In this document: one piece after another, positions 21,401 through 63,300 of the stretch
How the letters are laid out: the number at the start of each line of letters is the position of its first letter
Position numbering within the stretch: the stretch's first letter is position 1
DNA from: Ulva prolifera
Lineage: Eukaryota; Chlorophyta; Ulvophyceae; Ulvales; Ulvaceae
Assembly: GCA_023078555.1 (NCBI GenBank)
Contig: CM041196.1
Span: 6,769,985 to 6,833,984 of the forward strand
DNA: 64,000 nt
Direction of reading: 5' to 3'
The notes under the pieces: model-generated
What the model was told of the DNA's origin: nothing
The model's database searches: none
Seen by the model: the letters and a program-made list of their open reading frames with translations, nothing else
Program-made: the position numbers and the translations under genes

Positions 21401-24400
21401 CAAACTGTGAACGTGTGCTCTTGGACGGACATGCACATGTTCAGCTGGGGCTCTTGAGACTTTGCGGTGTCTCAATCCAGCGACAAAGAAGAGGCAAGAA
21501 GTTGACGACGTGGACAAGGTTTTCTTCATTCGGCATTCCGTGTACACAGTGTCTGAGCAGCCGAAGCGCTGGCGTTGCACAACCAGCTGCAGCTGCTGCA
21601 TCGCGAGTCAAGCGAGCAGAAATGCGAGCTCGACCACGTACATCATGCAGTCCCACAAGCTTCCTGCCCGCGCGCAGAGTATCTGAAGAGATGCAAGGGG
21701 CTACCAGTGACGCATCATCGCATGCAGTACCTTTTAAAGCGGTGGTGCAGAAAATGTTCAATGTTCCGTGTTTCCCGTCACTGTACATGTGTCACACATG
21801 TACACCATCAGCCTCCACCGGAAGGCATACAAAGCCAGTCTATCGGAATGGTTCAGGGCAGAGGCGGTAGTCAGGACAACTTGCCCAATGAGGTCAGCGC
21901 TGACATTGATGTGACGGCTACGTGTTCATGCGTTCAGCACTGGCCACTTGACTGTGTCAGCGCGCTCTTGCACACTGACAGCTCGCAAACTATTGTCGAA
22001 ATCAGAAGGCACTGCATGGCCAAGCTGCAGTACTTGAGGCACGGCGCTACGCGTCAGGAAAGAGTAGGCGTGATCTCGAGGTGTGTCGATCGACGTTTCC
22101 GGCACTCGGGCTTCATGCATACGTGTAACGTTGAACGCCGCAGAAAGCTCTGAGATGCTTAAGGCCGCCTATAGACTCATGAGAACTCCATGCCGATATA
22201 GCCTTCTTGAAAACTGGGCAGAAGTCCCTTTTCGCCGGGACGCGCATGCATGGGTGGCGCTGGGCGTCGTTCTGGGTCGTCTGAACGCAAATTTAAAGCA
22301 CGCCCATGGCCATACACAACAGGCATTCCGTCTGTGCTCCAACGTACGCATGGCGACTTAGAAGGCATCGAGGAGATTTGAAGTCTTTAGCCGTTCCTAC
22401 GGCTTCTCAGAGCTGTCAGGTGCCCGTGGACCCACCAGACATGCATGAAGCCTGCGTACTGTATATCGGGGACAACCCTCGTTTATCTCTGCCCTATCGA
22501 GCTACGGCAGTACATGACAGTACATGCAATGCATATATGGACGCAGTTCCCCTTGCGTAGTTCGCTCATATCTCCGTTGCAAGCACCGATGAAGCCAAAC
22601 ACGTCGTGTTGCGCGCTCGGGACCGCGCAAATACACTCGACGTCGGCTGGCCGCCTCTACAGGATCACAAAACAGAGCCCGACGTGCTACGCCTACAAGT
22701 GCGGGTCTGCGGACCAGAGAGGACGCAGGCGAATGCGTGAAGCAACGCGTGCCCGGTCTCTTACAAAAGAGTGAACGGGAGAAAACAAACACTGAAACCG
22801 AAGCTCATCCGAATCAACATCAACATACATCAACATCAACATACGCGTGCCCACGTGCACGTATTTCGCGCTGCGAATTGAATCAGGCGTTGCCGGCGGC
22901 CGCGGATCCATGCTCAGCTGAGCTCAGGGACATCTCTCGCAACGCCGGCACCGTGAGCTGTGCACTTTTGAGGGCTTGCGTGCACAGTTCGTGCTCCGCA
23001 CAATGCATGTGCATGATGCGATGGTTGTGTGAGGCGCTGCAGCTGGAGATCATGGGTACGGCGTATGCATGGTGATAGTGAAGGATCTTGCAATTGGCAC
23101 CAGTGCGTGCAAGCATCGATGTCTATGTTCACAGCGCAGCGCCATTTATACAGGTCTCGAATTGAGAGCACAACACAGCTTCCCATCCCATTTTGCACGT
23201 GCACGCTCTGTCATGCATATCCCTCAACCTGCAGCACGGTCAGAATAGTTGGACCATCTGGTGAGCCTCACGCCATTTCAAGTCCCACAGCAACGACGAC
23301 AAACGGTGCGGCGTCTACGTCGACTATGCCACCATTACCGTGCCTGATCAGCCTGATGGAGGTGGCCTGGTGCAGTGCATCTGCCGACGTCGACATGTGC
23401 AGCCCATGGCCAGGCCTAGCTATAGGCGCATGCCCGAGTGCGTGTGAATTGATACAGAAGAGTGAACGAGTCTGAACGAACAAACACAGCACGAGAATGT
23501 CCCCCGAAACAGTGCTCACACATAGCCACAGTGCGTGTGAATTGATGCGCCCAGCGCCGGTCGCGACGTCGCAGCTGCGGAAAGCTCACAGCTGAGCTAG
23601 CCATGCACAGATTGAACCATGCAATTTCCCGAGCTGCCGCAGCATCTGGCTCTTGATTGAGCACAGAATTTCAAATTCAATCACTACAAGACTTTGCTGT
23701 AGCAGGCAAGCGAATGGGCGATGTCTCCAGTAGGCTTGCAAGTCAACTGTGAACGAAGCTCGAGCACGAGCCAAAGCAAACACTTGCGCCACAGTTGGTT
23801 GCCGGTACAGCTCATTACGTTCGACTGCCTTTCAGGAGATCCAGAGTGGCGCTGCTCGAGTGCTTCTAGGCCATCGCATACCGTGCGGCAATTAGTGCTG
23901 GTCGAATGATTTGCCGAGGTCTAGGTCTAGTCTAGCTCACGATTTGCAAGCTAGCTCTCCCTGATGTGCCAGACGTTTGCGTGCAGGCGACAGCGCTAGC
24001 ATCTCCGCATCCGACTGAAGCTGCATCGAGATCCAGAATGAAGGTGCGCTCGCCATTGTGCAGAAGCCTCCTTGCAGTCGAAGTCTCCATTTCAAGGCCG
24101 TTATCCTTGGTCTTGCCGAGCACACCATGTCGATGCATGCATCAAGCTCGAATCCGAGCATGGCCTAGGCTTATCTCTTGAGATAGCTGACGCATGCGGC
24201 CGCACACTATCGTCAAAACGGCTCACTCACATTCCGCTACGCGCCGTGGTGTGACGCTACGATTGAGTGTGGCTTCGTTACCTGGTGGGTGTCAACAAGT
24301 TCCGTTGCAAGCGTTACCTCTGATGTGAGAAGAACCTCTAGAAACTCTATCAGATGTGATGTATGCATTGATTCTGGTTGTTCTCTCTGGGAAAGCACTG

Positions 24401-24677
24401 TCGATTCAACGCCACCAAAGCCCATGGCCAGAATGAGTTCAATGTATGTTTCGCTTGGAGTACCAGCAAACAACCAGAAGTCTATCTGCTGCCTCCATGG
24501 AGGCCTGCCATGGAGGCGGCATCTGATGGTCCCGGCGCATGCATGGGCCCCATGCAGTCTGCATGTGCACTCCTACCACTGCGAGTCAGGTGATGCTGTT
24601 GAACTTCACTAAGCCACTCTGCACTCCTGCAGACCTCACGGGCAAGGACCTTTGGCTGCGCCGCACTGGCGGCATGC
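18499..24677. other. Long gene-poor stretch
   Basis: About 6.2 kb in which I recognise no protein family on either strand. Open frames are short and rich in Cys, His and Met. A Gln-coding CTG/TTG run occurs at about 20020-20050. A 17-bp direct repeat (AGTGCGTGTGAATTGAT) occurs at about 23437 and 23530. The last 45 bp (from 24633) stay open in frame with the ferritin-like gene after a CTCCTGCAG acceptor, so an upstream signal-peptide exon for that gene may lie here. Confidence 0.4.
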
Positions 24678-27600
24678 ATGGCCGGTGACTCCGCGGTCGC
24701 AATGGACGTGCCCTTCGGCAGCCTCGCCATGAACCTAGAGTGCCTAGGTGCGGAGTTCTACTCCTTTGCCGCGTTTGGCGAGGGCCTCTCAGAGGAGCTC
24801 CGCGGTGGCGGGCCCCCCTCGGTGGGGGGCCGCAAGGCCAACATCTCCGGCCCCCTGCAGGTACGCACCCACCTCCGCTCTCTGTGCTTCCCGCATGCAT
24901 GCTGCTTGCATTAGAACAGCACCCCAGGAGCAGCTGGTGCACCCTAGCTAGCGGGCGTTCCTGCAGCCGCCCCTTGGAACCCGCACCTGCTCCTCGGAGT
25001 TTCACCGGATCAACTCGGCTCTGCACACATGCACACACCCACTCATTCCTGCGTTCAAGGTCATGCATTGCGACATCCCGGCCCCCCTTCCAGCGCCGCC
25101 CTGCGGCCACAGCGTGTACACGTTCCTGCAGCTGCACATGCACTGTGGTCCCAAGCGCATCTATTCATGGTGTGCATGCATGCAGGCCATCGTCGCAGAG
25201 ATGGCAGAGGAGAAGGCGGCGCACGTCAGGTTCCTGCGGGACGTGCTCGAGGACGCGGCGCCGCCTTGCCCAGCGATGGACATCGGCCCGGCTTTTGCGG
25301 CGGCCGCCGACGCCGCCACCGGCGAAGTCCTCATCCCGCCGTTCAGCCCCTACGATGACGACACGCTGTTCCTGCACGCCGCCTTCCTGCTGCAGGACGT
25401 GTTTGCGACGGTGTATGCCGGCGTCGCGACCGATGAACCCAAGCCAGGTGCGCAACCGCCGGGGGAGCCGCGGCGCCGGCGACGTGATGCCACCCCCTGC
25501 GGTGGCGCGGAACGTCGTGTGCGCGGTCGATGCGTTCGCTGAGCGATCTGAGATTTCCACAGCTGCTGCACCTGTGTCTCAGCGGGCCCTTCCACCCCAC
25601 CATCACCCCCGCAGCAACAACCACCCCCGCACCAATGTCCGACAGGCTGCCAGGATGCATGGGGACATGTGCAGCCCCTTCAGATTGACACACATATATG
25701 GCCGGCCGGTCAGGTTTCTTGTACATGGCCCTTCTGTTGAAGAACAGACGCCCGTTCATGCATGGGGAACAGGACTCATCGTGCAACCCGCCCCGCACAC
25801 GTGGAGTGACCCGCTGAGGAGAGCATGCATGAGTGCAGGTCTCGAGTACACGTCCACGCTGTTCGCGGTGGCAGACTCCTACTTCGCCGGCGCCGTGCGC
25901 GTCCTCCTCCTGCTCAAGGACAAGGCCGGCAACCCCACCCCCTTCGGCTCCATCGGCAACCTCGTGGAGCTCATGTCCGACCTTCGCGACTCCGAGGACG
26001 GCCCGAAGGACCTCGACCAGGGCGTCGGCAACGCGACCGCCGCCAACGTGCTGCCTGCTGACGAGGACGGCCTGCCGTACACCCGCGAGGCGGCGCAGGG
26101 TCTCGCGATCCTCTACCTCGGAGGCATGTCCTCCGGAGGCTTCTTCCCGGAAGGCATCACGATGGGCGTCATGGCAGACACCCCCGAGGCTGCGGAGGAG
26201 GTGATGATGGAGCCGGAGCCGGAGGCTGTGCCCACCCCAGAGCCGCCCATGATGGAGCCAGAGACGGAGCCGATCGTTGAGGAGACGATTCAAGTTGACG
26301 TGCGCCCGCCGTCCTGATGTGCCGTGCCGCGCCGGCATGCCTTTGCTGTGAGAATATGGCGGGGGCTGTGGCCCCCACGTCCACTGACTGTGCAATTGCA
26401 TCATGATGTTCGCTGTACGCACCGCAGATTTGATGCGTAGCCGGTACATTGCCCGCACGCGAGGTCGCCTCATGCATGTTCACGATCTGACAGGAGTTGT
26501 CGCGGACGCATGAGCTTGCGGCAGCGGCCATGTCAGAGCAGCCGCTGTGGCTCATGCATGCTGACGGCCCGGACACGCATGCAGGTCCCTCTCGCAGTTG
26601 ACACCGCGGACGCAGGCTGCTCGGGCACGTGCGAGTACCGCGTGAACGTTGACATGGTGTGGAACGCCCGCACCCACCCTGTGGACTACCCGGCCGGCGT
26701 CGCACACTGGTCGCCCTTCTACATGGTCACCCACGATGAAACGTACGCCCCATCCCCACCTCACCCCCCCTCCCCCCTGCTTTAGTGGAATTGGTGCCGG
26801 TCACGCTGATGTGAAGAGGGTCCATCCCCCCCCCTCCCTCCTCCTTCAGAGGAATTGGTGTCGGTCACGCTGATGTAAAGAGGGAAAATACCAGTGTCGA
26901 TGTGTGGTGCCCCTCAGACCGCAGCTGACCTGCCCGCGCTGCCGCGGTCACGCAGCCGTGCAGCTACTGCGTCGACTGGAATAGCAGGGTGTCCCTACGC
27001 TCACATGCTCCACCCACTCACCCCCTATAGCCACGGCCGCGCTGTTCCCCAGCGCACGCAACGCGCACTCCCGCGGCAGCCGCCACCGCGCACCGCACGG
27101 ACGGTGTGGATGGTCAGCAGCGGTGTGCACATGCGTGTGACGTTCACACACGCATGGCTTGACGCGCACCCGCGTGGCTGCAGGTACTTCATGTGGCGCT
27201 TCGGCGAGCCGGCGAGCGCGGGCATCCAGCAGATCGCGGAGGACGGCCTCGGCTTTGACTTCATGGACGAGGTCGCGGCGTGCGGCGAGTCATGCAGCGA
27301 CTTCGTGCAGGTCGCCTGCGACCCCTTCAGCGGCACCTGCACCGGCTCCGGCACCATCAGCGCCACCCCTGACCGCCCCTTCCTGTCCCTCGCTTCGATG
27401 ATCGCCCCCAGCCCAGACTGGTGCGCCCTCCGCGTCCCCGTGCCTTGCAGCGGCGGCTCCGGGTATACATCTCCTCATGCATCATGCGGGGAGTGTAGCG
27501 GCCGCGGCGTGGCATCATGCATCATCGGGTGGCAAACGCTGTGTACATCTGCATTCCTGCGCATGCGACAGCTTCCCACACAACCCCACGTCACACCCGT

Positions 27601-28123
27601 CGATCAACCTCTTCGGACGTGTGTTCGTTACGCCGTTGCTCATCAGCTACGTCGCGGGCGTTTGTGCTTACGTCACATGTGCTCATGTGCGGCGTGTGAG
27701 GTGTGACGTGGCCACAGGTTCACGGGCGTGGACGCGTGGCCGCTGTGCGTCGGGGGCGAGTGGATCGAGGGCCGCGAGGCTGACGTGGACGCGTACGACG
27801 CGGGCACCGACTCCGGGCCGACCTTCCTCTCCCCGAACCAGCCTGAGAGCTCCGTCGTCACCAACTTCCGGGACACGATGCCGCTGTCCGACTCCATCTT
27901 CTTTGACCCCGCGACGTGCGCCCCTCTTGTCTTCCCAGCTCCCCCGCTGCTTGCGTATTCACAGTGGACAAAAAAAACTCTTCATTTTTCTTACGAATGC
28001 TCGAGTTCATTGCTGTGTGTACTACATGCTGTGCGTGCTGTGCCTGAGGGTGAGGGTGCGCTGTGCAGGGGGGCGATGCTAACTGTTGGCAACATCGCCG
28101 TGGAGCTCGTGGGGTGCGAGTAG
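24678..28123 (+). CDS. Ferritin-like desiccation-related domain fused to a Spondin_N domain
   Basis: Six exons join in phase: 24678-24860, 25186-25447, 25839-26299, 26585-26742, 27184-27462 and 27718-28123, giving 582 residues. Residues about 10-255 match the PCC13-62 desiccation-related (Ferritin_2) family: MNLECLGAEFYSFAAFGEGL, GGGPPSVGGRKANIS, EEKAAHVRFLRDVL, DSYFAGAVRVLLLL, GLPYTREAAQGLAILYLGG and SGGFFPEG. An acidic Pro/Glu linker (about 260-302) follows. Residues about 305-540 match Spondin_N: HPVDYPAGVAHWSPFYMVTH, MWRFGEPASAGIQQIAEDG, IAPSPDWC, and DAGTDSGPTFLSPN. If exon 3 is not spliced at its GTGCGC, a stop at 26315-26317 would end the protein after the ferritin-like domain, so two products are possible. 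Both families are usually secreted. The residue three before the helix-2 His is Lys, so metal binding is uncertain. The 5' and 3' ends are provisional. Confidence 0.75.
26787..26884. repeat. Two-copy tandem duplication inside an intron
   Basis: A 34-bp block (GGAATTGGTG..CGGTCACGCT...) occurs at 26787-26820 and 26851-26884, 32 of 34 identical, each preceded by a C/T-rich stretch; the period is 64 bp. It lies in the fourth intron of the ferritin-like/Spondin_N gene. Confidence 0.85.
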
Positions 28124-31255: not shown

Positions 31256-34200
31256 CTACCGCGGCGGCCCTGAGGGGTCACCAACCTGTGGCGGCGGGTG
31301 GCTGGGGGGCCGTGGCTGCAGCGGCGGCCCGGGCGGTGCGCGTCCATACCCGCCCTGCCGTGGGGACCGCGTCTCCCCGTGCCGCGGGTAGCCCCGCCGC
31401 TCTGCGCCGCCACCGCGGCGCCCCCGGCCCCCCTGCCACCCCGGGCGGTCATGCCCGCGGTCGCCACGGCCGTAGCCGCGCCCGCCGCTGCTGCCGCGGT
31501 CACCACTGGTGCCGTGAGCTGGCGCGCACAGCGCCTGCAGGGGGTGGTAGTCCGAGTAGAGGATGTCGCAGGCGCGGCCGAGCTCCCGCTGGATGCAGCC
31601 GCGCATGTCCTTCGTGACCGTGCGGCCGAGGTCATGCGACAGTAGCAGCGGGTCCTGGATGCAGCAGAGGTGCTTCTCGTTGTTGATGCGGCGCGTCCAG
31701 TCAAGCTCCGCCTTGATGATGGTGTGGCCCCGAGCCGGACAAACCACCTCTTCATTGAAGTCAAACCTGCAAGCACGCATCCTGCGCCCGTCACTCCCAT
31801 GCATACACAGTACCCTCCTGTAACCGTCACTCCGCCCGCGCAATACACTGATTCAACAAAACATATCAGTTCAGATCTAGACAGCAGTGGCAAATGGTGC
31901 AGAACATGCATGCTGCACTAGCATGTGCGGCTCACACATGCTTGCATTCGACTGGAGCAGACGCGGACTGTGCGTCATGGCAGTGGAGCTCGCGAGGCGC
32001 ACCGCGTGGCGTAGTAGTCGAAAAACATCGTGAGCAGGCCGCCGAGGGTGATCCAGCAGTCACGGGCCGCCGCCGCAAAGCGCTCGACGTCGAGGCTGTA
32101 CGCGCAGCGCCACGGCTTGCCCGCGACCTCGACGACCGTGTCCACGTCCATCGGCTCCTCCCGCTGCAGCACGGGCACGAGGCCGGCGCGCTGCGCGACA
32201 AACACGGCCATGAGCACCCATGCGTATGGCGAGAGCGTCGAGAGGTACGCGTCCGCGATCTGCCGCTGCTTCGCCCAGTGCTTGATGATGAAGATGAAAT
32301 CGCGCATGCGGGGGTCGATGCTGGCGTAGGCACGCAGCAGCTCGGTGTTGCGCAGCGGCAGGAGGTTGTTGATCGTGACATCGACGTCGATGCCACGGCC
32401 GGGCAGCTGGAACTTCGCGACCGGCACTCGCGACTTTTCCAGCACGGTCACATTCTGCACAGCGACCATGATGAGCTCTCGAGCAGGGGGGGGGGGGGGG
32501 GGGGGGGGGGGTCGGAAGAGGCTATGCATGCTGAACCTCAAGCAATGCATGGAAAGCAGGCATTGTCTGAGCAACGAGCTCCACGAACAGCTCTGGGCTG
32601 TGGGCTGTTCACATAACTCATGAAATGACAGTATCGACACAGTGTCAGAGATAAGCCCCACAGCCGGGCTGTCCTCTACTCAACTGACATGCTGAGCATG
32701 CACCAGGATGACGCCGGGACAGAAGGACACAAGAAGGGCAAAGATGGCACAAGGACTGCTGTCTCCTGGACAGTCCCGTGGAATACAACACCACCAACGA
32801 GGGGTCAAGCACAAGGTGTTGGGCTCACACCAGCATTCCATTCTCCTTCAGGCCTTCTGCCAGCTCCACTAGCACGGCAGCCTGGCCGTCGCGGTCCAGT
32901 ACGTCATCGCTCTCCACCTGCAGCGTCACATCGAGGTCCTTGTTTGCCCGCAGGCACAGGCCGCTTGCCGCCGAGCCGTACAGGTGCGCCGTCGCGCCCG
33001 GCCGCAGCTCGGCCAGCAGCGCCGCGACCTGCGCGTACGCCTCCTGCAGCTCCTCTTTCTCCTGTGGCGACGGCGCGATCGCCGCGACCAGTTCCGCTGC
33101 GGCCGCATCGATTCTATCGAGGCCCGTCCGTGGCAGCGCGCCGATCGGCCGCGCCTTGCTGCTATTTGTGCGCAGGCCCGATAGCTGCAGCTGTCCGGGC
33201 GGCGGCGGCACGACCTCGAGCATTGTCGGCGGGCCCAGCGGCGGCCGCGCCTCATCTGGCACGTGCTCTGGCTTCTCCTCACCTCCGCCCTCCTCCTCGG
33301 TCACCCCGTCCTCGCCCGGCCCACTGATGCCGTTGGCCCGGCCGTGCGCCACCAGCTCATCTACTGGCTTGGCGTGGAACAGGTCATCAATGTTCAGGAA
33401 CTTGCCGTTACGGAGCCCAGCTCCGCCAGGCAGGGGCTGCGAGGGCAAGCTCAACGGGGGGCCGCTGACGGCGGCGGTATTACCTTGTTCTGCAGCTGGC
33501 TTGGCCGGCTGCAAGAGGACGGCGAGGGGATCCTCGCGGGGAGCTGGAGATTGGCTCACGCCCCTCACGCCACTACCCGCAGCTGGCGGCGCACCGCCGA
33601 GGTGCAACCCAGGGGGGGTAGATGGTATTGGCTGACTGACATTCGGGGCCGTGCAGGGGGGTGGTCCCCGTGCAGGACCTGTCAGGCCGGGTGGGGGCCC
33701 TGCAGGAGGAGCAGGCCCCAGGGGAGGGGGGCCGGATGGTGGCTTGGGTGCCGGAGAAGGCGCAGGTGGTGTTTGAGGCAGCGGTGCCACATCTGGTGGC
33801 GATGCGGGCTGCATCGGCTGCGCAGCCGGTGGACCGGGGGCTGTAGGCTGTGGCGTGTCAACATGCTCAGGGCCAGGCGGTAGCTGAGGAGACTGTTGAG
33901 CGGATGGGGATGGCGCGTGTGAGCTTGCTGTGGGTGCGGCCTGCGCCACAGGCTCCGCTGACGGCGCGTTCTGGGGGTTGGCAGTGCCTCGGCCGGCATC
34001 CAGGTTCCCGGATGCATGGTACGGATATTGCTGCATGGTGTGCTGGGGCGGAGGCATGGAGGGAGGAAACGGGGCAAACGCGGATGCGGAATTGCCATGG
34101 GACGGTGCCGGAGGAGGCTGTGGAGGCCGCTGCATGGCATGCATCTGGGGATGCATGCCTGGAGGAAAAGTGGGGTTCGACGGCATCATGGGGTACATGA

Positions 34201-35545
34201 CATTGCCTCCGGGCTGGAACTGCAGCATGTGTGGCTGGCCTGCAGCTGCAGCAGGATTGAACACTCCATGTTCGCCGTCCGGGCCCGCAAACGGTATGGA
34301 CGGATCTTGCGAAGGAGCGTGTAACCCATGAGGAGGCATCCCTGGCTGAGGTTGAACAGATGGGTGAGGGTGGGGCATCCCCGGCATACCGGGCATAAAC
34401 GTAGTCATCTGGTAGGTGGTGGCAGCGCTCATGTGTCCGCATGTTGAATTGGGATCATGTGGATCAGCTGGTTGAAAAGGCGGCAAATGGGGATGATTGT
34501 ATACGTTGGCTGGTGGAACTGACACTGTGAGTGGCAGCTGCATTCCGGATGGAGCTACTGTGAAAGGCCGAGAGGCCAGGGAGCTTTGGGCTGCATGAGG
34601 GCTGGCTGTCGTAGCTGCGTCGTTTGCATTGCCAGGATTCGTCGCAGGTTCTGCACATGAACGTATACTTCAAACGATATTTTCGCAGGCACTGCGTGCC
34701 AGCGGTAACTGCAGACAGGCTGCGGACGATATCAAACCGGCGACGTCGTGGCATTGCGCACTGCAACCGTGCAGGAGAGATGCAATCGCACCAGATCCCA
34801 GATCCATCTTCCCCATCAATCGCTCAACCATTTCATCACCAGCATCCTTCGTGCCCCGACGCTGTTCGGTGTGATTATCCTCTGGCCTGCTCCCGACACT
34901 TGTGCTGATCGGCACCTCCCTGCTTGCGGCCATGTAGATGCCTTGCCCATTGGCACTGGGCATAAAGCTGGGATAGTACTGATACGGCATCATGTTCGTC
35001 ATTCCGGCATAGGCAAGCATCGTCGGATCACCGTGCACCTCCACGGCTTGAGGGCCGTGAGCGCCATGTGGTGCACCCCATGGCCCGGCTATCCCACTTG
35101 TGACTCCGGGATAAGGCATCATGATCGGCTGCATGGTGCCGTCGCCTGGCGTGTTGAACGGTTGTGCGGGCATCACAGCCATCTGTCCCGGTGCTGGTCC
35201 GAAAGGCTGCAACGGCATCCCTTGACCATACTGCTGGTATCCCCCACCCGGCCTTACACCCGACATATGTTGGCCTGGAGGGAATCCCTGCTGGAAGTCG
35301 CCCATGCGGAAGGCATTCGGCTGTGCGTCTTGACCGAACGGAGCGCCTTGCGATGGCTGTATTGGCGGCATTCCTGGAAGATTGCTGTACGCATTTGGTC
35401 CGACAGGGAATGCGCCGTTACTGAAATGTGCCGGTGCATGCTGGTGGTGCGGAGGTCCACGCTGATGGTCCATCTGATTTGAAACATAGTCTCCCGTCGT
35501 CAGCTGGCCATCCGTGGACTGATCTACGCCCGCACTCCACTGCAT
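31256..35545 (-). CDS. Terminal nucleotidyltransferase, URT1/TUTase type
   Basis: Four exons fit in phase: 34792-35545, 32831-34650, 32003-32454 and 31256-31766, giving 1178 residues. The first 700 or so are disordered and rich in Pro, Gln, Met and Gly. The catalytic domain shows LYGSAASGLCLRANKDLDVT (GS signature plus paired Asp) and the third Asp in GIDVDVTINN. The central PAP/OAS1-like part includes FIFIIKHWAKQRQI, LSPYAWVLM, and, across the last junction, FFDYYATRFDFNEEVVC. The C-terminus is an RGG-like Gly/Arg-rich tail. Such enzymes add uridines (sometimes adenosines) to RNA 3' ends; plant URT1 uridylates deadenylated mRNAs and likewise has a long disordered N-terminus. I see no obvious PAM2 motif. 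Nucleotide preference cannot be told from this sequence. The start is the first ATG of a long open exon. Confidence 0.85.
32486..32511. repeat. Poly-G tract (26 bp) in a TUTase intron
   Basis: On the coding (minus) strand this is a C run 31 bp upstream of the acceptor at 32455-32456, so it may serve as the polypyrimidine tract of the second intron. Confidence 0.9.
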
Positions 35546-44052: not shown

Positions 44053-45204
<1,152 letters not shown>

Positions 45205-51324: not shown

Positions 51325-52068
51325 GTACCGTAATGAATGTAAAGGTTCGTTGGAATCGCTCTGTCCGTCCAGATCCCAGAGCGACGAAATTAATGCGCAG
51401 TCCTGTCCCGTAGACGGCTGCAGCGACAAAACTGACTAAAACTGTTTCGCGATGTCCTGGGCTCCTCTTCGCTGGCGCGACGAAGTGCCAAACAATAAGT
51501 AATGTCCTGGATTTTGCAACTACGATACGACGGCGGCAGTGTAAATAATGAAAGACATGTGTCCCGCATGCTCAGGGCAGCTGGTGCTTGGCGACGTTGT
51601 AAGCTGACGCAAGCTGCTGTGTTGCACATCCATCACAGGCCCTGTCAACCGCGTCTGTGCGCTCTCGCGCTGCCTGTGCAGCTACTTACTCGAGATCATT
51701 GGCGTCAAATTTCTTAAAGTAGCCAGTAATTAATTTCGGTACCTTCCGAACTGCTTCGTCGTCTGATGTGACATCAAGGCATTCACTAGACTCGCTCATA
51801 GTATTTACAATACAGTAAACGGAAGAATTCGCTCATAGTGAGTGCGTAAAGCTCAACAGCGCATTGACAAGCCACGTGAGGCCGGTGCGACGAATGCTAA
51901 AAGAAGTAAAGTGGCTTGTCCAGTCCCGCAATACATGCGCGTGACTAACTGCAAAACAATGCAGGTCATTCGCCTGTCGCCAAAATCGAAGGGCCCGAAA
52001 TTAAAAACAACGGTTCTCGCGTCTTGTCCCACGTAGAGCCGCAACGAACCTTTACATTCATTTGGTAC
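51325..52068. mobile_element. MITE-like element with terminal inverted repeats
   Basis: The ends carry a perfect 21-bp inverted repeat (51332-51352 and 52042-52062; outer part AATGAATGTAAAGG). With one small gap it extends to GTACC at 51325 and GGTAC at 52068. The interior has no transposase and no long frame; a 64-codon frame at 51842 is the largest on the plus strand. The 9-mer CGAAATTAA occurs near both ends in the same orientation, and its complement lies near 51730. Size (about 740 bp), TIRs and lack of coding capacity suggest a non-autonomous DNA transposon. I cannot identify the superfamily; a target-site duplication is not obvious. Confidence 0.55.
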
Positions 52069-52295
52069 GTGCGGCCGGCCACGCCAGCGTTTCGGGAGAA
52101 CGACATGCAGACGACTGGCCGCATGCGTCCGGTGCCTACTTTCACGAAACTTGCCCGTTCTGTATTCCACGCACTGGATTAGCTGCCCCACAGCGAAAGT
52201 ATGCTGGAAGACGCCCCTGTTGCCAAAGAGGCTGTGTGGCACTATGGTATGGCGTAGCGGTTGTGCGCGGTTGGATTAGCATCCTTAAACCAGTC

Positions 52296-53195
52296 ATGGA
52301 GTTACTGCTGATAGCAGGGAGCATCGCTGTGCTCCTTGCTGCTCTGACAATCTATTTTCTGCGCCCACAAACCTTTCTCCAGCCTGATCGGTTCAAAGCT
52401 GCCAAATTAGTGGAGAAAGAGACCATCACGCACAACACGAAGCGCTTCCGTTTCGAGCTACCTTCAGGCAAGAGACTGGGATTGCCTGTTGGGCAACACA
52501 TATCGTTTCAATATACCGATGCTCGTGGCTCTCCGGTGATGCGATCTTACACTCCGGTGACGGGTGATGAGACACTGCACTACGTCGATTTCGTCATCAA
52601 GGTGTACCCACAAGGCAAGATGTCCCAGCATGTAGATGGTCTGGCAATCAATGATACCATCCTCATGCGTGGGCCGAAAGGTACTTTCAAGTACGCGACG
52701 AACATGAAGAAGCGAATAGGTATGCGAGACGCAGTGCCTACATTGACTTGCATGCCAATCGCGATTAACACATTACTGGCCATTTCACCGCACCGCACAC
52801 AGCGATGCTTGCATGTAGGGATGATTGCTGGAGGGACCGGGATCACGCCGATGTACCAAGTGACCAAAGAGATTCTTCGCAACCCGGAGGACAGCACTGA
52901 AGTATCGCTGGTGTTTGGTAACATTTCTGCGCAGGATATCATTCTTAAAGATGAGCTAGATGAGCTACAACGTAATCATTCGGAGCAATTGCACATTTAC
53001 TATGTGCTTGATTCACCACCAGAGGGGTGGACGGGTGGTGTGGGTTATGTGACGGAAGACATCATCCGACAGCATTGTCCTGCGCCTTCACAAGATTCCA
53101 TGCTATTATTTTGTGGTCCAAGGCCTATGGTCAAAGCCCTTGAAGGCGTGGCAGCCACAGTTGGCTTCACAAAAGACCAGCGACACAGTTTCTAG
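52296..53195 (+). CDS. CBR1: NADH-cytochrome b5 reductase
   Basis: Two exons, 52296-52719 and 52819-53195, give 266 residues. The N-terminus is one hydrophobic anchor (LLIAGSIAVLLAALTIYFL, residues 4-22). The FAD domain shows GLPVGQHISF and RSYTPVTGDE (the RxYTPV flavin-binding motif). The NADH domain has GMIAGGTGITPMYQV, LVFGN and the closing LFCGPRPM. It transfers electrons from NADH to cytochrome b5 for fatty-acid desaturation and sterol steps at the ER or outer mitochondrial membrane. The 99-bp intron (GTATGC...TGTAG) has a length divisible by three and no stop, so retention would insert 33 residues just before the NADH glycine motif. I call it an intron because GMIAGGTG should follow KRI directly. 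The gene is convergent with SEC63. Confidence 0.92.
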   Translation: MELLLIAGSIAVLLAALTIYFLRPQTFLQPDRFKAAKLVEKETITHNTKRFRFELPSGKRLGLPVGQHISFQYTDARGSPVMRSYTPVTGDETLHYVDFVIKVYPQGKMSQHVDGLAINDTILMRGPKGTFKYATNMKKRIGMRDAVPTLTCMPIAINTLLAISPHRTQRCLHVGMIAGGTGITPMYQVTKEILRNPEDSTEVSLVFGNISAQDIILKDELDELQRNHSEQLHIYYVLDSPPEGWTGGVGYVTEDIIRQHCPAPSQDSMLLFCGPRPMVKALEGVAATVGFTKDQRHSF

Positions 53196-60341: not shown

Positions 60342-63300
60342 CTACTCTGCCGCCGGCATGACGCGCCAGCAGTCCAGGAACACGTCCCGCAGGCGGTACC
60401 GCTGCCCGCACGCCGCCAACAAGCGCGCACCGGCCACGCTGTACACAAGGTTGTCTGCCGTCACATGTACCTCTTCTGGCTCTGCCCCCTCCTCTGGCTG
60501 TGCCTCTTGCGCATGTGGCCGAGCCTCAAGCAGCAGCGCCACTGCTTCGGCTTCTGAGTACGGCACCTTGAAGATGTGCTCCCCCGCTGCAGTGCCGCTT
60601 GGGTACAGCAGCGTGACCACTGTGGAAGCGGGCAGGGTGGCGCGAGGGGAGGCATCCCGGGAGAGCACGGCAAAGGCCTTGCGCACCGCAAGCGGCAGCT
60701 CCTTGTCAGCACACAGGTACAGCAGCATGCGGTTGATGTTGAGCTTGCGGTGTGGTGTCGATGTGCCCGCGCCGGCCTCTGTGGGCGGTGTTGCAGCCGG
60801 GGTGGGCTCCTCTGTGGATGCCAAGGGGGCACCAGGCACTGCGCCGTCGGTGGTTGCGGCGGCAGCATCGCTTTCGTCGGCTTTGAGGGCCTCTGCGCCG
60901 AGTCCAGATGCTGCACCGCTGCTAGATTCACTCTGCGGGGCCGCTGTCAGAGGCGGCTCCAGCACCTCCTGAACACGTACACCACTCGCCATGACACTCA
61001 GTGCACACATACATATCTACACACGGAAAGCCCACTGGGCTCAACTCAAATGAATCACATCCCGCCGTCTGCAATTCACCAGTCCGTTCACGGCAACAGT
61101 CAATAATGACAGATAGACTCCAGGCTACATGCCTTCATCATCACCGTGTGAGCATCGCAACGTTCAGCAGCAGAAAGCCAGCAAAACATTGCAATGTTCG
61201 CTCACGTATCTGGTGATGACCCTTGTGCACACAGGTGTCGTTGCATCACAAAGGAGCGATCTAGGCCACAGCCAGTGCTGTGGTACGACACACACCTCCC
61301 AGAACATATCCCACAGGAGCTGCTTGATCCCTGCCTGCCAGTGTGACGGCGCCTCCTGAGGCTCGCCAAGCAGCGCGTTGGCGGCCTCGAGGTCCTCCTC
61401 ACACCCAGGCCGCCGCCGCTGCGCCTCAAACCACAGCTCACACCCCTCCCACTCCTGCTGCGTCACCGCCCCGTCCGCGTCCCCGTCAGCTGCCGAGAGT
61501 GCGGCAGCTGCCGCCGCAAATGCCTTGGGCGCCGCATCCACGATCTGGGGACATGCATGCAGCACAAGCGAGGCTGCCACCTCGAGCCAGTCCACGTACC
61601 CGCTTGCATGGCCGTCCAGCTCAGCGAGCGCGTCATGCATCTGCTTCCACGTCGCGCGCTGCCACTCCACTGGGAAGGCCTCCGGTGTGTCTCCGCGGAC
61701 TGCGGAGAGCGCCTGCAGGAGGTCCGTACAATCGCGGGTCATGATGAACTCAGATGTGGTGACGTTGCGTGCTGCCCGTACGAGAGCTGAGAGCTGTGCC
61801 CCGTTGAGCAGTCCTGGTGCAAGTGGCTGAAGGGGCGGCGCGGCCGGCGCCTTGCGAGGCGGCTGTGGCACAATGATTGTGCTTTCATCAACAACTGCCT
61901 CGCCGTCTGCGATCGTTAGGGCGTGGGGGAGTAGCTCGCCGGCACGTACGGCCTCTGCGGCGGCGACCGTGACGGACGCAACGGAAGCGCACTCCGCGCG
62001 GAAGCGGTCATGCATGAGGCGGGCTAACCGCTCCGAGACTGCGGAAACAACTCCATGTAGTTCTGCGGCGGCATCTCCAGCACGGGCCGCAATTGCTTGG
62101 AGCCGCTGTGTCAGGATCGCTCGTTCGCGCTCCAGCAGCGGTTTCACTGTGGCATCAGCAGCGTCCACACGCTCCCGTGCTGCAGCCGCCGCTGCGGCAG
62201 CGGCGGCCGCGGGCGTTTGTGGCGTCGGCTCTGCCGGCGGCGGCGCGGTCTTGCTGCCCTTCTTCCCAGAGGCTGGTCGGGCAGCTGTAGCCGCCGCTTC
62301 GACGGCGGCGGCGATCGTGTCTCGCTCATCCTGTGCGAGAACCGCACACGCACACCGCAGCGCGCTCGTCACCTGGTCCAGCCCCTCAACTGCCGTCCAC
62401 TCACACGTGCCAGCAGCAGGCATGAACGGCGCAAGCGTGGGCGTATTGGCACCCCCAAGAACGTCCACATGCGTGAAGCCGATGCCCAGCGGCGGCAGGT
62501 TGGCACAGCGCGCAGCGTGGTCGCGCGCAAAGGCAACTGTGGCCTTGAAGCGGTCGACCTCCGCTTGCACGAGCGCAGCATAGCCTGCCGCCAGCGCCAC
62601 CTTAGAGCTGTCCTCGAGGGCGGGGTCGGTGAGCTCTGAGTGCAGCTTGGTGTTGTTTGCCAGCTTGTCGTCGCAGATCTTCCACAGTCGATCCCGCAGC
62701 TCGTCCACCTGCACCTCGAGTGCCTTCAACAAGGACATCACAGCAGACAAAGTACAGCTGCCAGCGCATGATTGTGGCAATTGCTGCGGCAGCGCTGGAA
62801 AGGCCCAGAAGCGGCCACAGGAGGCAGTTCATATGGCCTGCGGATCTTGCCCACATGCTTGCACATGCCATGCTCAGGCCCGACGAGGTGCACAGAGTTC
62901 AGGAGAAGCTCTCAATAATGGCGTGCAAGTGTTTCTGACATTCCGCCTGCTGCATCATGACGTTCACGTCCATAGCTCCGCCGCCAAGAAACCAAACCAG
63001 TCGACGGGTTGTCGCACAACAGGACGTGTGGCAAAATGCGTGGCGTGGTCGACACATCACGCATGGAACGGCCAGGGCCCTTGATTCCACGAGAGGGCAC
63101 ACCTGGAGAGCAAGCTCCGCCTTGACCTCCGGAAGCCGCAGCAAGTCCAGGTCCACCAAGTTGAACTGCACTTGGAATGCTGCCAGCTCCGCCTGCCGCT
63201 GGTCTGGCCGCTGCAGGTGGCCCGCAAACTGCAGCTGTGCGGCATGTAGGCGCTCCAGGACGCTCGCACGGAGCCGCCGCAGCCCTGCAAACGCCAGCTT

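Follow-up and report, generated by a model that had tools for sequence, protein, structure and literature searches.

Desiccation-related ferritin-like and Spondin_N domains joined in a gene family, of at least five copies, of the green alga Ulva prolifera

We analyzed a stretch of 64,000 nucleotides of Ulva prolifera contig CM041196.1, here called the window. On its plus strand lies a gene of eight exons (24038-28123, 534 aa; intron phases 0, 0, 1, 0, 2, 2, 2) that encodes a Ferritin_2 domain (PF13668; E=3.9e-15; 56.6 bits against a gathering cutoff of 24.7) followed by Spondin_N (PF06468; E=1.6e-34; 120.2 bits against a cutoff of 24). These Pfam values were obtained with the exon join that preceded a correction at 27421; a later Pfam scan of five gene models used the corrected join, and both families matched all five full-length models, window included. 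That one gene holds both domains had been proposed in an initial annotation of this DNA and is borne out by the two Pfam families, each above its cutoff, and by five homologous copies in the genome. All five models were built by eye and homology; the features of the window copy are given in Table 1.

Table 1. Features of the window gene
Feature	Position	Strand	Remark
Exon 1, ATGAAG (Met-Lys), then donor GTGCGC	24038..24043	+	ATGAAG+GT upstream in all five paralogs
Intron 1	24044-24632	+	
Exon 2: signal-peptide-like N terminus and ferritin helix 1 (NLECLGAEFY; Gly at the DRB0118 Glu76 position)	24633..24860	+	signal peptide by eye
Exon 3: ferritin helices 2 and 3 (ExxH reads KAAH; helix-3 Glu is Gln)	25186..25447	+	
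Exon 4: ferritin helix 4 (ExxH reads DSYF), desiccation-related C-terminal region, acidic linker	25839..26299	+	
Acidic Pro/Glu/Met-rich linker	26162..26299	+	expanded solely in the window copy among the five
Junction intron, phase 0, 285 nt, GTGCGC...ATGCAG	26300..26584	+	counterpart in C5a and C5b; absent from C2a and C2b
Exon 5: Spondin_N start	26585..26742	+	
Exon 6: Spondin_N up to APSPDW (first Ca2+ ligand Asp)	27184..27420	+	
Exon 7: Spondin_N with DAGTD (second and third Ca2+ ligand Asp)	27718..27915	+	
Exon 8: last Spondin_N strand and stop codon	28069..28123	+	

The gene does not begin at 24678, as first assumed, but 640 bp upstream, at an exon that consists of ATGAAG alone in all five genes and leads into a hydrophobic, signal-peptide-like stretch (by eye). 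At the border between the domains, the predicted donor GTGCGC and the predicted acceptor, TGCATGCAG ending at 26584, are both present, and the intron that they delimit is in phase 0, with the same phase and a matching place in two paralogs, C5a and C5b. The choice of sites is narrow: GTRYGY donor-like sites in 26151-26600 occur at 26300 and 26415 only, and TGCAG occurs once in 26401-26620, ending at 26584. Across the family, GTGCGC is also the donor used most often (15 of 33 modeled introns), and NTGCAG is the acceptor in 26 of the 33. Further introns in Spondin_N are present as expected, but there are three (26743-27183, 27421-27717, and 27916-28068) rather than two. The second of them has its donor inside a Trp codon, so that SPDW is joined directly to FTGVDAW; an exon end after ...DWCALRVPVPCSGGSG, suggested by the open frame, was ruled out, since in each of the five genes a donor, GTGCGC or GTGTGC, lies inside this codon and restores PSPDWFTG. 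The first contains a tandem duplication (26764-26884; period 64, 1.9 copies, 89% matches). The acidic Pro/Glu linker noted between the domains exists, but it is an expansion of the window copy and not a family trait: the border is short in the paralogs, and in C5a and C5b a comparable Pro/Met/Glu-rich stretch instead separates the signal peptide from the ferritin domain (L020, 2281-2757, and L021, 3894-4460, respectively), to which C5b adds Met/Arg-rich, RMRSPRRE-like repeats.

Elsewhere in the window, a perfect (GT)49.5 microsatellite lies at 44564-44662. On the minus strand, a Poly(A) RNA polymerase-like (MTPAP central) domain extends across two open frames at 31978-34669, after a long Pro-rich N terminus, with the upstream frame below the Pfam cutoff. 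A single open frame on the plus strand (52005-53192) matches an FAD/NAD-binding oxidoreductase in Pfam, of the type found in cytochrome b5 reductases. A SPEF2_C domain on the minus strand at 61167-62828 suggests a flagellated stage, SPEF2 being a protein of the flagellum.

The genome (88.9 Mb, 44 contigs) has light-harvesting genes of the green, chlorophyll a/b type, and a search for the RuBisCO large subunit gave no match. When it was searched in six frames, Spondin_N gave 10 exon matches at five loci and Ferritin_2 gave 9, likewise at five loci; as the best-scoring candidates alone were followed, there are at least five loci per family. They pair one-to-one on the same strand, with Spondin_N after Ferritin_2 within about 2 kb, and no lone locus of either family was seen among the candidates scored. 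The resulting genes are the window gene, C2a (L018), C2b (L019), C5a (L020), and C5b (L021). The window copy is 49-54% identical to the other four, and ten cysteines are common to all five. Because the five homologous copies share exon lengths and intron phases, chance co-occurrence of the two domains is excluded. The border itself is encoded in two ways: the window gene, C5a, and C5b have the phase-0 intron there, followed by an exon of 158 nt in all three, whereas C2a and C2b carry the border inside one exon of 508 or 520 nt, so the fusion holds without splicing at the border. The Ferritin_2-Spondin_N fusion is genuine and lies within a single gene, which is presumably transcribed. In a quick tree with 98 prokaryotic Spondin_N domains and no animal sequences, the five algal ones formed one clade (SH-aLRT 99), which fits a single fusion followed by duplication.

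The neighboring copies C5a (L020, 4145-5714) and C5b (L021, 6469-8315) show an unusual pattern of similarity. Their 3' exons, E5 to E8, are 91-99% identical and the 5' exons, E2 to E4, 68-80%, while the introns between E5 and E8 are unalignable (44-54%); near-identity ends 12 and 6 nt outside exon 6 and, around exon 5, continues for 55 nt of the following intron. Such a pattern suggests 3'-biased homogenization largely restricted to exons, as cDNA-templated gene conversion could produce, or else introns that turn over very fast.

A characterized, desiccation-linked relative of the ferritin half is DRB0118 of Deinococcus radiodurans (L168; WP_227086048.1, on plasmid MP1), a protein whose sequence includes the 280-aa DRB0118 construct of PMC11616004 without a single difference. 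Identity to it is 48% for C2a and C2b, 44-46% for C5a and C5b, and 35% (over 289 columns) for the window copy; the C2a alignment covers 273 columns and DRB0118 residues 27-295 and stops at the domain border. In the part of PMC11616004 that deals with this protein, DRB0118 has phosphatase activity on ordinary and damaged nucleotides and is a dimer in solution, and earlier work is cited in which inactivation of its gene led to poorer survival of drying. The dimetal motif E(6)Y, ExxH, E(6)Y, ExxH, described for an algal (Chloroidium) Ferritin_2 protein in a portion of PMC5509433, is complete in DRB0118 and in C2a, C2b, C5a, and C5b. The window copy departs from it, reading E, K..H, Q, D..F with Gly at the position of the accessory Glu76 of DRB0118; the ligand changes are E to G, E to K, E to Q, and H to F. 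Asp also stands in helix 4 of the tardigrade protein RvFeMP-1. Loss of the bridging Glu of helix 2 should abolish the metal site of the window copy, which on these residues is a Ferritin_2 homolog by descent and is not predicted to be an active enzyme. Since most of the other ligands are gone as well, it is probably a pseudoenzyme, a noncatalytic member that acts in structure, in binding, or as a dimer partner. For the desiccation-related proteins of lichen algae, a partly bacterial origin is suggested in PMC8073698 and PMC6652019.

The Spondin_N half, searched as a five-paralog profile, aligns to the human FS structures 3q13 (E=3.2e-34) and 3d34 (E=1.9e-33). A section of PMC3117680 places the three Ca2+-binding aspartates of F-spondin in PSPDW and DAGTD. 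All five algal copies keep these ligands, and in none of the five models was a Reeler or thrombospondin-1 domain found beside FS: the Pfam matches are to Ferritin_2 and Spond_N, and one model has an additional PGM1_C match at E=0.06. The defining architecture of F-spondin and mindin includes thrombospondin-1. Scored with the algal domain profile, bacterial Spondin_N domains reach 132 bits per domain; scored with the full-length profile, the human domains reach 119-122 bits. These scores are comparable, so they favor neither as the source of the algal domain.

In the prokaryotic and viral sequences that we searched, no counterpart of the fusion was found. Profile-based scans, which miss real bacterial relatives of single halves, confirmed no relative in genome contigs (148 stretches, from two peptide patterns) and none of 57 in viral contigs. 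Spondin_N proteins themselves are common in prokaryotes: a Spondin_N DNA motif occurred in at least 117 prokaryotic stretches and 2 viral ones; it lay in an open frame at 108 of the 119 loci, and 101 of the 119 matched the algal Spondin_N profile. Among these 108 open frames, 68 of at least 290 aa were scanned by Pfam: 61 matched Spond_N and 7 an unrelated symporter family, so the motif also yields false matches. The Por_Secre_tail sorting domain was present in 17 of the 68, and Ferritin_2 was absent among the matches listed for them (25 of 40 families). The algal ferritin profile hit none of 6,452 ORFs from the 119 motif loci; as a positive control, it finds DRB0118 and ferritin-like proteins of Acidisoma, Acidisarcina, and Thermus at 128-216 bits. 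The two viral loci are on IMG/VR contigs, L139 and L140, and the motif is in an open frame in L139 but not in L140.

Searches of whole genomes and plasmids gave the same picture. Of 294 genomes of the Planctomycetota (the phylum of L054), each represented by no more than five scored candidates, 22 had a match, and all 28 matches listed fell at profile positions 273-484, the Spondin_N half. With tblastn against plasmids, C2a matched 124 records and the window protein 121, none of which covered 80% of the query. Within the best 40 of the 121, ferritin-like proteins of Deinococcus, Sinorhizobium, Rhizobium, and others match only residues 10-278, and Persicobacter and Vibrio only the Spondin_N half. 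One Acidisoma match among the best 20 of the 124 crosses the border (C2a query positions 90-348) and was rejected as a fusion: the ferritin gene stops at 296 aa, and beyond that point the match reads through the stop and enters an oppositely oriented gene. Literature searches found no paper joining the Ferritin_2 and Spondin_N families. The initial annotation knew of no described protein that joins them, and our literature and prokaryote searches, with annotated eukaryote proteomes outside their scope, agree. Within the searches made, the fusion is undescribed: each half is of a known kind, and the combination is new.

We favor, with fair though incomplete confidence, the explanation that these genes encode a secreted two-domain desiccation-related enzyme tethered at the surface or matrix by a C2-like FS domain, the window copy being a pseudoenzyme. 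The N-terminal domain would be of the DRB0118/PCC13-62 kind and the C-terminal one Spondin_N (FS, C2-like), in a protein that is probably secreted. The four canonical paralogs would bind two metals and act like DRB0118, as phosphatases on ordinary and damaged metabolites, or in related redox chemistry. The FS domain, with its Ca2+ site, would anchor the protein to the cell surface or the extracellular matrix. The window copy would do without the chemistry: it has kept both domains and the Ca2+ residues, and the dimetal bridging Glu and most other ligands are gone. From sequence we infer secretion, tethering, enzyme activity, and a role in drying alike, and the activity is transferred from DRB0118 at 48% identity or less.

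The chemistry might be different. That the ferritin half is an iron store or a manganese-catalase-like scavenger of reactive oxygen species, and not a phosphatase, is possible but doubtful. The Chloroidium motif is so interpreted in the portion of PMC5509433 cited above, and four paralogs keep that motif; however, the relative DRB0118 was assayed as a phosphatase in the corresponding part of PMC11616004, and the window copy has lost the motif.

We consider it unlikely that the window gene is a decaying paralog without function. Its lost ligands, its divergence from the other copies, and its higher dN/dS in both halves would suit decay: window-to-paralog dN/dS (simple method, dS 0.57-0.86) is 0.49-0.51 in the ferritin half and 0.52-0.77 in the Spondin_N half, against 0.15-0.31 for both halves in two close paralog pairs, and relaxed constraint is possible. 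Against decay, all 534 codons are open, all seven introns are GT-AG, GC3 is 0.88 (0.86-0.87 in the other copies), and the Ca2+ residues and the ten shared cysteines are retained, as would be expected of a copy that has diverged and yet been maintained. By dN/dS, the Spondin_N half is no better conserved than the ferritin half, and this counts against selection for tethering only.

A more elaborate scenario, which we regard as rather improbable, would have the family arise by fusion of a bacterial-type DRB0118-like gene to Spondin_N, with the catalytic copies held outside the cell in a Ca2+-dependent manner and the window pseudoenzyme pairing with active paralogs and tethering them through its longer linker. 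RvFeMP-1, which has the same fold, dimerizes through helix 4 and is offered as a parallel for such pairing.

The initial annotation also suggested that splicing at 26300 switches between a short ferritin-like product and the fusion. The ferritin-like frame does stop soon after the donor, as it had noted, and the retained intron ends translation after 5 codons. Yet stops inside retained introns are the rule in this family (28 of 33 modeled introns), C2a and C2b have no junction intron, and the retained intron stops after 20 codons in C5a and reads through to 127 codons in C5b. With such differing outcomes, no short product is conserved, and that of the window copy would probably be inert, its ferritin domain having no metal site. 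The switch therefore found no support, and regulated retention that yields a short product besides the fusion is very unlikely. Hardly credible at all are two neighboring genes, with the ferritin-like gene terminating at 26317 and the Spondin_N gene beginning within 26441-26585: a stop codon does follow 5 codons past the donor and an open frame with an ATG does precede VPLAV, but a single exon spans the border in C2a and C2b, the junction intron recurs in C5a and C5b, lone loci are absent among the genome candidates scored, and 26318-26584 contains no AATAAA, ATTAAA, or TGTAA, the algal polyadenylation signal.

If the tethered, secreted protein that we favor is real, it bears on a wider question. 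Drought-tolerant plants, bacteria, tardigrades, and lichen algae repeatedly turn out to have desiccation-related ferritin-like proteins, whose site of action is poorly known. Joining to a Ca2+-binding extracellular-matrix module would give a testable place of action, outside and at the surface, and the one copy in five that has naturally lost its metal site would provide a built-in comparison of catalytic and noncatalytic roles.

The fusion can be compared with known systems from both ends. Bacterial Spondin_N proteins score comparably against the algal profiles, but no ferritin-like partner was seen in 119 loci. With the FS domain of F-spondin and mindin (3q13, 3d34), the alga has in common a homologous domain and the Ca2+ residues of PSPDW and DAGTD; unlike in those proteins, its FS partner is a ferritin-like domain, and no Reeler or thrombospondin-1 domain was found. 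On the ferritin side, DRB0118 and plant PCC13-62 are clade 2 Ferritin_2 desiccation-related proteins. The likeness to DRB0118 covers the whole ferritin half, which is homologous, has the same C-terminal end and, in four algal paralogs, the same ligands; the differences are that DRB0118 is without Spondin_N and the window copy without most ligands. PCC13-62 is likened to the algal proteins through its clade 2 membership, not by sequence. A similar layout is found in the tardigrade clade 1 Ferritin_2 proteins RvFeMP-1 and RvFeMP-2, in which, by their description in part of PMC11616004, a secreted ferritin-like domain is followed by a beta-sandwich domain. Compared by description, the extra domain is IgG-like in the tardigrade and Spondin_N in the alga.
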